Below are positions 45,489 through 56,629 of a DNA stretch of 64,000 bases, in pieces. Every line of letters starts with the position of its first letter. The stretch's first letter is position 1. A program made the translations under genes and the position numbers. The stretch comes from Fulvivirgaceae bacterium JP3-4 (GTDB lineage: Bacteria > Bacteroidota > Bacteroidia > Cytophagales > Cyclobacteriaceae), in assembly GCA_029309925.1 (NCBI GenBank), contig JARKND010000004.1, positions 310,001 to 374,000 of the forward strand. Direction: 5' to 3'. Under the pieces are notes generated by a model. The model made no database searches, was not told the DNA's origin, and saw only the letters and a list, made by a program, of their open reading frames with translations.

Positions 45489-45506
45489 ATAAGTGTCTCT
45501 TATACA
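45489..45506 (+). promoter_or_regulatory. Candidate AraR operator, ECF sigma operon
   Basis: ATAAGTGTCTCTTATACA fits ATAAGTGT-N6-TACA. Over 22 bp (45491-45512) it matches the site upstream of the ara operon (56614-56635) at 19 positions. It lies in the 295-bp gap between the ECF sigma start and the CE1-like esterase stop. Its longer distance to the start codon (112 bp) makes it less certain than the other three. Confidence 0.5.
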
Positions 45507-45671
45507 ATTATACGTAATCGACCTTCAAAAATCAAGTAACGTTTGCACATTCGTTTGTCTTCGGCAGGAATCCCTGAATGGGAGATTTAAAAACTTGTTT
45601 AGACATCTAAGCAAAAATCCCGGATGCATTTGAACCGCTGCTAAACAGTCGAGAAACATTTGATTGCACGA

Positions 45672-46796
45672 TTATTTGAAAAGTTTCTCTGCGATGGTGG
45701 CGAGATAGCGCTTACAATTCATCCACGTGTGTCCTCCGTCTGAAATTAACGTTTCGTGTTTGATCCCTTTCGATTTCAGTACCTCAATATATTCCGACAC
45801 TACCGGGTAAAGCATGTCCTCTGTTCCGATACCAATCCAAAATAATTTGAGGCGCTGGTTGGTTTGTGACGGATCTTTGAATGCGCCTGCGTTGTTGCGG
45901 TCGAATTCTTCTTTCAACATTCCGGGAGCAAAACCGCAGATCCATGACGTCAGCTCCGGATTGTTCAACCCCAGGAACAACGTCTCTCCTCCTCCACCCG
46001 AGAATCCCGCAATCGCACGGCTGTCGCGGTCAGCTTTCACGCGATAATTTTGCTCAACAAAGGGAAGAAGATTATTGAGGAAATCCATCTTGAATGCCTG
46101 GAGATTTTCCCACGAGCGAAGACTTCCTGAGGATTTGCTAATGAGTGGGTATGCCCGGCCGTACGGCATCACAATGATCATTGGTTTTGCTTTTCCTTCT
46201 GCAATCAGATTGTCGAGGATGATATTCGCTCTTCCAACCTTTGTCCAGGTTTCTTCGGTATCTGTGGTTCCATGTAAAAGATAGAGCACGGGATATTTTG
46301 TTTTGGAATCTTTTTCATATCCAGGCGGAGTATAGATCACAACTGGTCTTGTGCCGAGCTCAGGCGACTGATAATAGCGATACGATACTGTACCATGCGG
46401 CACGTTTCGAACGCTGTGCACCAGCGGAGTGGAGCCTGTAATTTCCACAAGACTACTTTGGAAACCTTCGTTCGGAAAAACCGCAGAATTCTTAGGATCA
46501 GCCACCGAAGTTCCATCAACAATAAAGTTGTAAGGGTAAATGTCAGGCTTGACCGGGCCCAACGTTACGCTCCATAATCCGCTGGTATCACGGGACATCT
46601 TAACACGGCCTTTCTCAAGCTGAGTAGTCAGCAAAACTTCCCTTGCAGTTTTAGACTGAAACCGAAACGTCACCGTATTGTCCGCATTTACCTCCGGAGA
46701 AACAAACACCGGCCCGCGCGGAGGTTGCGCAAATAATACAACTGTGCAAAAACATGCGTGCAACAAAATGATTGTAGAAATTATTCGTCTGGCCAT
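45672..46796 (-). CDS. Secreted CE1-like esterase with N-terminal Ig-like/CBM48 domain
   Basis: A 374-residue secreted hydrolase (signal 1-23, ending VLFAQ). Residues about 28-120 are an E-set/CBM48-like beta-sandwich, as in two-domain feruloyl and acetyl-xylan esterases. The catalytic alpha/beta domain has [17 protein letters not shown], nucleophile Ser in [11 protein letters not shown], likely Asp in GIGTEDMLY and His in [11 protein letters not shown]. Relatives remove feruloyl or acetyl groups from arabinose or xylose side chains. It is 39 bp downstream of the GH51 arabinofuranosidase gene and most likely co-transcribed with it, which fits joint debranching of arabinoxylan. Confidence 0.87.
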
Positions 46797-46835
46797 AACC
46801 TGGTGATTGGATCGAAAAACGGAAGAACCAAGCTG

Positions 46836-48377
46836 TTATTTCAACTCGAGTACCACGACTGACACCGGAGGCAACTTCACTTTCAACACGCCATTTTCAA
46901 ATTTCGCGTCCTTAAATTGTTGCGGCTGTACCTTCGTAGGTGCCTCAAAAGTATTATGGTCAGTTACTTTATCAGATGCGAGTATCCGACCCGTTACGTT
47001 TTTGAACTTCGAGCCGTTTAGCGTTATGGAAATCTCCTGGCTTTTGTTCGCATCGATATTCACCAATGAAATATGGCCTGCACCTGCATTATCTACCGAA
47101 GCAGAAGCTGACACAGCAGGGAGTTTCTGATTGTTGAAAACATAATCGTTTGACCTCACGCTCAGCGGAAGCAGTTTCGCATCCTGATGAACATTGAACA
47201 TCTCCATCACATGATAAGTCGGTGTCAGGATGATCTTTTCCTCGTTGGTGAGAATCACGGCTTGCAATACATTGATCGCCTGCGCAAGATTGGCCATGCG
47301 AACACGCTCTGCATGATTGTTGAAGACATTAAGACTTACACCAGCGATCATCGCATCGCGCATGGAGTTTTGCTGATAGAGAAATCCGGGGTTGGTACCA
47401 GGCTCTACGTCATACCATCCGCCCCACTCATCAACAACAAGGGCAACTTTCTTTTTCGGATCGTATTTATCCATAATAGTGGAGTGTCGTGTTACGAGCT
47501 CTTCCATCTCAAGGGCACGACTCATAATGGTGAAGTACTGTTCTTCGCTGAATCCGGTAGCTGGTCCTTTTTTATTCCAGTCAATGACCGAATAATGGTG
47601 AAGTGCCACACCGTCCAGCATGTTTAAAGGAATTTCGCGCATGAGCACTTCTGTCCAGTTGTAATCATTCGAACTTGCACCGGAAGCTATCTTAAATAAT
47701 TTCGCGTCTTTGCTGTCTGTCATGAACGTTGCGTACTGTCTGTAAATATTCGCGTAGTAGTCGGGCTTCATGTTTCCACCACATCCCCACGCTTCGTTGC
47801 CAACGCCCCAATATTTTACATTCCACGGCTTTTCTCTTCCATTCTGCACACGCAAATCTGACATCGGGCTCTGGCCTGTGAAATTTACATATTGAACCCA
47901 GTCAACGAGATCCGTCACTGATCCGCTTCCCACATTTGCTGCGAGATAAGGCTCCGCACCGAGCAATTCACACATGTCAAGAAAATTGTGCGTACCGAAG
48001 CTGTTGTCTTCTGTGACACCGCCCCACCACACATTTACGATCTTCGGCCGCTTTGCCTTAGGACCAATACCATCTTTCCAATGGTAAGTGTCCGCGAAAC
48101 ATCCACCCGGCCAGCGCAGGTTCGGGATTTTCATTTTCTTCAGCGCATCGACAACATCGGTTCGCACGCCATTCACATGTGGGATTTTCTTATTGTCTTC
48201 ACCAACATAGAAACCCCCGTAGACACATCGTCCCAGGTGCTCGGCAAAATGCCCATAGATATGTTTGTTGATCACAATATTCGATGGCTCCTGGATGGTG
48301 ATCGAATTGGTTTGTGCGAAAGCGCTCATTGTTCCGATAACAATTAAAACCGCGCTGAAAATGAATTTTTTATTCAT
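46836..48377 (-). CDS. Alpha-L-arabinofuranosidase, GH51
   Basis: A 513-residue enzyme with a signal peptide (1-21, ending SAFAQ), so periplasmic or surface-exposed, unlike many intracellular GH51 enzymes. Family blocks: [40 protein letters not shown], the acid/base Glu in [14 protein letters not shown] and the nucleophile Glu in [13 protein letters not shown]-terminal beta-sandwich ends in VVVLELK. It releases terminal L-arabinose from arabinan or arabinoxylan, feeding the adjacent ara operon. A candidate AraR operator lies 38 bp upstream of the start codon. Confidence 0.95.
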
Positions 48378-48415
48378 GTCGAAAATGAATTGAGGATAAG
48401 GTTAAATTTTACACG

Positions 48416-48433
48416 TGTACAATATACACTTAT
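48416..48433 (-). promoter_or_regulatory. Candidate AraR operator, GH51 promoter
   Basis: On the minus strand it reads ATAAGTGTATATTGTACA, fitting ATAAGTGT-N6-TACA. It contains the perfect inverted repeat GTGTA-N5-TACAC, the most symmetric of the four candidate sites. It is 38 bp upstream of the arabinofuranosidase ATG. Confidence 0.6.
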
Positions 48434-55684: not shown

Positions 55685-55700
55685 TACAACCCCTCTTCCA

Positions 55701-56369
55701 TTAAGCCAGTACAGCTTCCTGCATTTTCTTCGAGTCTTCAATAAATTTTAAAAGGCCCGCGTCTGTGAGAGGGTGTTTCAGCAAACCAAGAATTGAATCC
55801 AGCGGACTTGTGCAAACATGAGCTCCTGCCGAAGCACACGCGATAATATGGTTCACATGCCGGATGGAGGCTGCAAGTATCTGTGTATTAAAGTTCTGGA
55901 TGGTATAGATCTGGTGGAGCTCGCGGATCAATGCGAGTCCATCCCAACCGGTGTCATCGAGTCGGCCGATGAAAGGAGAAACGTAGGTTGCTCCTGCTTT
56001 TGCTGCGAGGATCGCTTGCCCGGATGAAAAAACAAGGGTGCAGTTTGTTTTGATGTTATTGTCAGAAAACCATTTGATGGCTTTTACACCGTCTTTGATC
56101 ATCGGCACTTTCACAACGATATTTTTGTGGATCGCAGCAAGCTTTTTGCCTTCAGCGATCATTCCTTCAAAGTCGGTGGAGATCACTTCAGCGCTGATAT
56201 CGCCATCCACGATCTCGCAGATTTTCTTATAATGGTCAAAGATATTTCTTTCGCCCTTCACGCCTTCTTTTGCCATCAGCGAGGGATTGGTAGTGACACC
56301 ATCAAGAATACCGAGCGAGTGGGCCTCGCGGATCTGCGCAAGGTTAGCTGTATCAATAAAAAATTTCAT
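55701..56369 (-). CDS. Transaldolase / fructose-6-phosphate aldolase-like enzyme
   Basis: A 222-residue short-type transaldolase (TalC/MipB/FSA subfamily). It opens MKFFIDTANLAQIREAHSLG, then GILDGVTTNPSLMAKEG, has the Schiff-base Lys in NIVVKVPMIKDGVKA, and NCTLVFSSGQAILAAKAGA, VSPFIGRLDDTGWDGL and SIRHVNHIIACASAGAHV. Short family members act either as transaldolase or as fructose-6-phosphate aldolase. In an arabinose operon a transaldolase role in moving pentose phosphate carbon to glycolysis is more likely. It follows the small coiled-coil gene by eight bp. Confidence 0.93.
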   Translation of the reverse strand: MKFFIDTANLAQIREAHSLGILDGVTTNPSLMAKEGVKGERNIFDHYKKICEIVDGDISAEVISTDFEGMIAEGKKLAAIHKNIVVKVPMIKDGVKAIKWFSDNNIKTNCTLVFSSGQAILAAKAGATYVSPFIGRLDDTGWDGLALIRELHQIYTIQNFNTQILAASIRHVNHIIACASAGAHVCTSPLDSILGLLKHPLTDAGLLKFIEDSKKMQEAVLA

Positions 56370-56377
56370 ACTTACGT

Positions 56378-56578
56378 CTAGTGCAATTCGATAATACGTT
56401 TACGCTGGAACTCGACAGTGTCCTTCATTTTCATCATCCGTGACCTGGCCTGGCTGAGTTTTTGTCTCGCCCTATGCAGTTCCGAGTTCTTTTTTTTCAG
56501 TTTTTCCCTGAGTTCCTCGATAATCTGAAGAAGTGTTTCCTTGTCACTCAACATCAGGTCCTTTGTGCCGCGTGCCAT
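56378..56578 (-). CDS. Small charged coiled-coil protein at the head of the arabinose operon
   Basis: A 66-residue, highly basic protein, almost all predicted helix. Heptad-like leucines run through TLLQIIEELREKLKKKNSEL and on to the end (DTVEFQRKRIIELH), with 20 or more Lys/Arg. It starts 33 bp downstream of the candidate AraR operator at 56612-56629 and ends eight bp before the aldolase ATG, so it is placed as the first gene of the operon. No family is recognised. It could be a coiled-coil adaptor, a nucleic-acid-binding peptide or a leader; its coding status rests on position and composition. Confidence 0.65.
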   Translation of the reverse strand: MARGTKDLMLSDKETLLQIIEELREKLKKKNSELHRARQKLSQARSRMMKMKDTVEFQRKRIIELH

Positions 56579-56611
56579 GCGTTAGTCTTTTTGTTGTAGC
56601 CAATTTACATT

Positions 56612-56629
56612 ATAAGTGTAACTAATACA
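56612..56629 (+). promoter_or_regulatory. Candidate AraR operator, arabinose operon promoter
   Basis: ATAAGTGTAACTAATACA fits ATAAGTGT-N6-TACA. An overlapping palindrome TTACA-N7-TGTAA (56605-56621) adds a second possible half-site pair. It lies 33 bp before the first gene of the operon, a position where a bound repressor would block the promoter. Confidence 0.6.

Follow-up and report, generated by a model that had tools for sequence, protein, structure and literature searches.

A predicted AraR regulon with an operator before an ECF-sigma/SusCD operon in a Chryseolinea-like Cytophagales bacterium

A stretch of 64,000 nucleotides from Fulvivirgaceae bacterium JP3-4 (contig JARKND010000004.1, positions 310,001–374,000; termed the window) carries four copies of a short motif upstream of genes, and an open reading frame (ORF) for a homologue of the arabinose regulator AraR. 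Do these sites belong to that regulator, and which genes do they serve? An initial annotation proposed that AraR co-regulates arabinose catabolism, an arabinofuranosidase, a glycoside hydrolase family 9 (GH9) enzyme and a whole SusCD operon. The present analysis suggests, with a probability of about 0.87, that the NrtR-type AraR encoded at positions 48558–49247 has the four sites as its operators. Its release would free the ara operon, a GH51 gene with an esterase gene, an operon that begins with an extracytoplasmic function (ECF) sigma factor gene, a BD-FAE-like esterase gene and/or the GH9 gene, and also a GH43 and a GH127 gene. Co-regulation of arabinose catabolism and the arabinofuranosidase, as first proposed, is supported by AraR orthology, operator match, genome ranking and conservation.

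The operator and its regulator

The pattern first described was ATAAGTGT-N6-TACA, with 12 fixed bases, at positions 31309–31326, 45489–45506, 48416–48433 and 56612–56629. All four sites are present with no mismatch to the fixed bases, and all are intergenic as stated, i.e. outside ORFs of at least 150 amino acids (aa). The flanking sequence shows that every site is palindromic with one half weaker. The unit is a 23-bp imperfect palindrome, ATAAGTGT-N7-ACACTTAT, and the T before ACA is the final base of the spacer, which had been given as 6 bp. Since the unit is palindromic, the plus and minus strands assigned to the sites have no meaning. The distances of 38, 38 and 33 bp reported for GH9, GH51 and the ara operon arose because the asymmetric core was measured; measured from the full palindrome, the distance to the start codon ATG is exactly 33 bp at all three. 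A polarity of the operator (better half-site toward the gene) was considered and is unsupported: in 33 one-directional sites, a lone mismatch falls in the distal half 14 times and in the proximal half 11 times. Nor is a fixed −7 promoter box behind the operator, for which the aligned flanks were viewed by eye, claimed here.

Comparison with the published AraR motif of Bacteroides, suggested as a check, shows the same spacing and half-site. The published operator frame is GTGT-N7-ACAC, and three sites of Bacteroides thetaiotaomicron AraR (BtAraR) in electrophoretic mobility shift assay (EMSA) oligonucleotides all have it, with 3, 2 and 0 mismatches to AAGTGT-N7-ACACTT (PMC4666351). The operator upstream of the ara operon, 56612–56634, is semipalindromic, of the same type and with the spacing of these oligonucleotides.

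The protein encoded at 48558–49247 matches BtAraR (5bs6 and three further entries), and the homology noted initially is borne out as orthology by this match and by key residues. A Nudix-like domain is followed by an NrtR winged-helix domain (PF00293, PF21906, PF19368). In the alignment to 5bs6 the arabinose-pocket residues Arg34, Phe36, Arg86, Phe129 and His131 (BtAraR numbering follows PMC4666351) are identical, and four of the six base-contacting residues are kept (Lys179, Arg180, Asn181 and Lys184 of the recognition helix). The Nudix box is degenerate: the REUXEEXGU consensus is lost and the sequence reads RVLAQLTGL within GGFVGKNENADEAAARVLAQLTGL. A degenerate Nudix box has been reported for AraR (PMC4666351). 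In NCBIfam the sole match, to an ADP-ribose-responsive relative, scores 127.9 bits and falls short of the cut-off of 400. The gene adjoins araA, araB, araD-like and transporter genes; the xylose-gene neighbourhood of an NrtR-type XylR is absent at this locus. Among titled contigs, the AraR proteins most closely related to it are from Pseudochryseolinea, Dawidia and Chryseolinea, the last of which NCBI assigns to the Cytophagales.

Within the window, 13 matches with at most two mismatches to the first pattern are found (mean 2.84 and largest 8 in 100 shuffles), some of them one palindrome counted in both readings. The 5.81-Mb genome has six exact matches, four in the window and the others at C4:384223, 10 kb beyond the window end, and C1:2271143; all of these counts are partly circular because the motif was picked from the window itself. 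The 23-bp palindrome with one mismatch occurs only at 31304, 45489 and 56612 of the window and at C4:384223, all within C4:341–384 kb. With two mismatches it occurs at the GH51 site (48411), the GH127 site (C1:2271143), C1:2992872, C4:389645 and C5:872501.

A matrix scan for clustering before arabinose or hemicellulose genes had been suggested, and a profile made from other species' sites did put its best genome-wide places there. This profile is sequence-only and derives from 62 sites of other species, none from the present genome. In the window it ranks the four sites highest (Table 1), with 5.3 bits for the next place. In the scan of 5.8 Mb (150 of 2528 candidates scored) the top six distinct places are the four window operators and the GH43 and GH127 sites outside the window. 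Among the next-ranked places, C5:637383 (12.4 bits) is in an ORF and C5:626362 (10.8 bits) between ORFs. A fully symmetric AraR-type palindrome is also seen at C4:389645 (L023:15645–15667; 11.4 bits), within the predicted signal-peptide coding start of a second GH43 gene.

The operator is also found near AraR relatives in other genomes. In 80 loci (80 of 557 relatives, 1.48 Mb), AAGTGT-Nx-ACACTT was counted with at most one mismatch for x = 3–12. There are 63 sites at N7, as against 0, 2, 5 and 1 at N3–N6 and 2, 2, 3, 2 and 1 at N8–N12. An N7 site is present in 45 of the 80 loci and absent from 35. All but one of the 63 are not deep (>60 bp) inside an ORF of at least 120 aa, and 57 lie no more than 500 bp from a start codon. 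The neighbours include an araB-like gene in 18 loci, GH51 in 9 and a SusC-like gene in 10. In the first 20 loci, 15 have an araB-like gene, and in 12 of those a site with at most two mismatches lies shortly before the gene. With the profile (E ≤ 0.5, both strands counted), five genomes with a clear AraR give 4–12 matches and five without give 4 (in G001), 0, 0, 0 and 1. AraR relatives (58%–59%) and AraR-type operators are also seen in a Balneola metagenome-assembled genome and in Fodinibius roseus (L091, L107), the latter genus belonging to the Balneolota; the Fodinibius operators precede an araB-like gene and a SusC-like gene.

By analogy with BtAraR, the regulator is probably a repressor, with arabinose as the releasing signal. 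When arabinose is absent, an AraR dimer would sit on the operator, one winged-helix domain per half-site, and block transcription. Binding of L-arabinose to the Nudix-like domain would then shift the winged helices and release the DNA.

Predicted target genes

The gene controlled by each operator, the membership of the operons, and the role of the ECF operon as a second, transporter-sensed layer are predicted from position. Within the window four units would be derepressed: the ara operon (56578–48558), araR itself included; GH51 with the esterase; the ECF-sigma/FecR/SusCD/FG-GAP operon; and the divergent BD-FAE-like esterase and/or GH9. Outside it, the GH43 and GH127 genes would follow. Table 1 lists the features.

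Table 1. Features of the window and the six best places of the genome-wide profile scan
Feature	Position	Strand	Remarks
Predicted AraR operator, between divergent GH9 and BD-FAE-like genes	31304..31326	arbitrary	33 bp to GH9 ATG, 213 bp to esterase ATG; 1 mismatch; 20.1 bits (independent profile, window)
Predicted AraR operator, upstream of ECF-sigma/FecR/SusCD operon	45489..45511	arbitrary	112 bp to ATG; 1 mismatch; 14.9 bits (window)
Predicted AraR operator, upstream of GH51	48411..48433	arbitrary	33 bp; 2 mismatches; 13.0 bits (window); lowest of four genome-wide, E 1.06
Predicted AraR operator, upstream of first ara-operon gene	56612..56634	arbitrary	33 bp; 1 mismatch; 17.9 bits (window); one half = AATTGT
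araR, NrtR-type Nudix and winged-helix repressor (predicted), 229 aa, last ara-operon gene	48558..49247	-	5bs6 BtAraR E 3.6e-75; NUDIX, NrtR_WHD, AraR_C
Sodium:solute symporter, putative arabinose uptake	49275..50963	-	PF00474 E 4.8e-54
araA, L-arabinose isomerase	50998..52488	-	PF02610/PF24856/PF11762
araD-like class II aldolase family protein	52506..53234	-	PF00596; araD role from context
araB, ribulokinase	53231..54922	-	NF003154 700.9 bits (cut-off 428)
HAD hydrolase	54977..55741	-	PF13419
Transaldolase / fructose-6-phosphate aldolase family	55701..56369	-	PF00923
66-aa charged ORF, first ara-operon gene	56378..56578	-	ORF reading
GH51 alpha-L-arabinofuranosidase	46836..48377	-	PF06964 E 2.3e-53
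Esterase, partly feruloyl-esterase-like, 39 bp behind GH51	45672..46796	-	PF00756; NF041944 C-terminal part 166 bits (cut-off 1200)
ECF sigma factor	44846..45376	-	PF04542, PF08281
FecR-type anti-sigma factor	43772..44722	-	PF04773, PF16344
SusC-like TonB-dependent transporter	40233..43739	-	PF07715, PF00593
SusD-like protein	38678..40255	-	PF07980
FG-GAP / ASPIC-UnbV protein	35048..38671	-	PF13517, PF07593
FG-GAP / ASPIC-UnbV protein	32788..35199	-	PF13517, PF07593
BD-FAE-like alpha/beta hydrolase (acetyl/feruloyl esterase-like)	31540..32505	+	PF07859, PF20434 partial
GH9 enzyme	28742..31270	-	PF02927, PF00759
Genome place 1, before GH43 gene	C4:384221		22.2 bits, E 0.0011
Genome place 2, GH9/esterase	C4:341304		20.1 bits
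Genome place 3, before GH127 gene	C1:2271141		17.5 bits
Genome place 4, ara operon	C4:366610		17.0 bits
Genome place 5, ECF operon	C4:355489		14.8 bits, E 0.27
Genome place 6, GH51	C4:358415		13.0 bits, E 1.06

The ara operon has the order 66-aa ORF, transaldolase, HAD hydrolase, araB, araD-like, araA, symporter and araR. No homologue of the 66-aa ORF is present in the other loci compared. A GC-rich near-repeat (56680–56930) was seen by eye in the gap that precedes the operator of this operon.

The SusCD operon does have a site before it, as the initial annotation held, and it opens with ECF sigma and FecR genes, which had gone unmentioned. This is the least expected target, of a less usual class. 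In the relative G017, a different ECF-FecR-SusC-SusD set (24%–33% to that of the window) comes after araR, and a one-mismatch operator lies 50 bp before the candidate ATG of the ECF gene in this non-orthologous set. In G002, another ECF gene (33%) has a candidate TTG start, and a one-mismatch operator lies 15 bp before it. This operator is situated between the ECF gene and a divergent FecR-SusC-SusD set, which it could equally serve. That the three ECF-linked operators (present genome, G017, G002) arose by accident is unlikely, since only about two chance sites are expected per 1.48 Mb (mean of nine wrong spacers); the strength of this argument is moderate because the G017 and G002 regions were chosen for holding sites or araR. 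The 600 bp upstream of 29 other ECF loci hold no site with at most one mismatch and two sites with two mismatches.

Runs of SusC-(SusD)-FG-GAP genes in one direction, with FG-GAP proteins like that at 35048–38671, are found no more than 10 kb from araR in L070, L119, L124 and L129, 4 of the 80 loci. In L070, L119 and L129, AraR-type operators lie shortly upstream of SusC in such cassettes, which resemble that of the window. ECF genes near araR number six in the 80 loci, and no enrichment is claimed. In the Flavobacterium loci L096, L104 and L110 an ECF sigma-like gene immediately precedes araR and has the same orientation.

It is conceivable, at slightly less than even odds, that cytosolic arabinose must first free the sigma/anti-sigma/SusCD operon before a signal can pass from transporter to FecR to sigma factor, and that AraR operators were separately recruited to unrelated ECF genes in the three genomes. 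Such a gatekeeper arrangement would parallel the dual control in Bacteroides by AraR and a hybrid two-component system. If AraR does sit above ECF-sigma glycan systems, the case would show how a monosaccharide signal from the cytosol is combined with a glycan signal from the outer membrane. Such a combination is difficult to study at loci under ECF control, because the promoters of these loci are difficult to predict (PMC3878776).

Evidence against the regulon and other explanations

Several observations weigh against a regulon of this extent. For the regulator, all six base-contacting residues are described as absolutely conserved among the orthologues studied (PMC4666351), and the wing residues Lys204 and Arg205 of BtAraR are exchanged to Arg and Lys in the window AraR; this exchange is common to four aligned relatives. 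By score the GH51 site (13.0 bits) is barely above the seventh place, C5:1044040 (12.7 bits, E 1.39), which is inside an ORF; the GH51 assignment therefore leans on position and conservation. Among GH51 loci of relatives only 8 of 22 have a site of at most two mismatches within 600 bp, where about 0.5 is expected from the wrong-spacer rate. In G026, of the same family as the present genome, araR is followed directly by GH51. No site is present at the second GH51 gene of the present genome (C4:584252, 66%) or at the orthologous ECF/SusC locus of G017 (49%/66%), and a site of at most two mismatches is absent from 7 of 10 BD-FAE-like orthologues, including those of the AraR-bearing G026 and G030. 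None of the eight other GH9 loci has such a site within 600 bp, not even the 84%–85% orthologues in G001 and G032. Of these two, G032 has an AraR match at 60% and G001, of the same genus, none above 48%; yet G001 carries a 20.9-bit site within 2.6 kb of sequence that hold no ORF of 150 aa. In the 20 genomes with an AraR at 52% or more, a looser pattern is matched 51 times (reversed control: 27); the corresponding numbers for the other 39 are 48 and 31. This count over 59 genomes is a weak indicator of AraR and was not used.

Conservation upstream of orthologues, the absence of which was to speak against the first proposal, is clear for the ara operon and GH51, and it is lacking for GH9 and for the orthologous ECF gene of G017. 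These results bear on the operator at 31304–31326. The site itself is real, but GH9 as a sure target is weakened (0/8 loci), while the BD-FAE-like orthologues have a one-mismatch site in 3 of 10 relatives (G002, G017 and G003, all AraR-bearing). The comparison favours the divergent esterase gene as the better-supported target.

The same pattern of conservation would agree with a smaller AraR regulon of just the ara operon and GH51, in which the sites at the ECF operon and at GH9/esterase are decoys or act on other genes, since operators recur at araB-like genes and GH51 and fail to do so at GH9 or the orthologous ECF gene. This is unlikely: the ECF and GH9/esterase sites outscore the GH51 site, and there are the one-mismatch sites at the esterase orthologues and the AraR-type sites before unrelated ECF genes in G017 and G002. 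That the four matches are due to chance in AT-rich intergenic DNA is hardly credible. The motif is indeed AT-rich, and with at most three mismatches the genome has 23 matches each way, below the 32 of the reversed-pattern control, so at this level background dominates, which also counts against the regulon. The top six places of the profile scan are, however, of another kind. All four places with at most one mismatch are confined to one 43-kb region, the independent profile puts the window sites in the top six of the genome, and the spacer control is sharp.

The sites could instead be bound by one of two other NrtR-family paralogues (C1:2828085, 50%; C5:26325–27014, 39%–49% in two pieces). Both have the same domains as AraR, NrtR relatives could share half-sites, and in G047 a 43% relative has an AraR-type site close by. 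Within 400–500 bp beside either paralogue, however, there is no AraR-type site of at most three mismatches. C1:2828085 adjoins an FGGY kinase gene and a xylose-isomerase-like gene, and it has Pro in place of the DNA-intercalating Arg180 of BtAraR. Its intergenic region (L047:9456–9548, between the FGGY-kinase gene and the paralogue) has a different candidate palindrome, TAGTCA-N3-TGACTA. This XylR-like paralogue was judged an unlikely binder on these grounds, and binding by either protein in place of the window AraR is quite improbable.

Related systems and an adjacent cluster

The arrangement appears to be the known AraR regulon type, newly placed in a Chryseolinea-like Cytophagales bacterium and not in Bacteroides. 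The regulon of BtAraR (BT0354) in B. thetaiotaomicron and other Bacteroides and Prevotella species has an orthologous regulator, the GTGT-N7-ACAC operator, and as targets the ara operon including araR, GH51, GH43 and SusCD operons, some of them under second-layer control by another polysaccharide utilization locus regulator; overlap with hybrid two-component systems is described (PMC4666351; PMC3878776). There are several differences as far as these articles describe that regulon. The ara operon here has no araM, and has transaldolase and HAD hydrolase genes before araB; one operator was found before it, and two in tandem are present there. GH127 is a predicted target here and is not among the families named in the available portions of PMC4666351. 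The second layer at the SusCD operon would be an ECF sigma/anti-sigma pair in place of a hybrid two-component system. A repressor-operator pair that is structurally understood in gut Bacteroides would be extended to a genome of the Cytophagales, where GH51, GH43, GH127, esterases and a SusCD operon are the named predicted targets.

The NrtR-family xylose regulator BtXylR (BT0791) belongs to the same protein family as AraR. A XylR-like paralogue of this family is present here, C1:2828085, which differs from the window AraR in neighbours, in a recognition-helix residue and in its candidate palindrome. The AraR of Bacillus subtilis (GntR/LacI type) shares the name and the role of an arabinose-released repressor (PMC4666351) but is from an unrelated protein family. 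PMC5507952, considered as a precedent in Cyclobacteriaceae, was set aside; the part available concerns Halomonas, in which LysR- and GntR-type regulators bear the name AraR. In the available portions of the open-licence literature no report was found of AraR over an ECF system, nor of the present regulon in Cytophagales.

Beside the ara operon a run of genes extends over positions 57119–63977 and on to L023:627–3845 (C4:374627–377845). It encodes SusC, SusD, an SBF-type transporter, an RraA-like aldolase, an MR/MLE sugar-acid dehydratase, an FAA hydrolase and an aldehyde dehydrogenase. The run looks like a sugar-acid (Weimberg-like) pathway. A variant palindrome, ACGTGT-N7-ACACGT, is found before its SusC gene. 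In G026, the ORF called for a 65% relative of this SusC has a one-mismatch AraR-type site at a distance of 82 bp on its upstream side.

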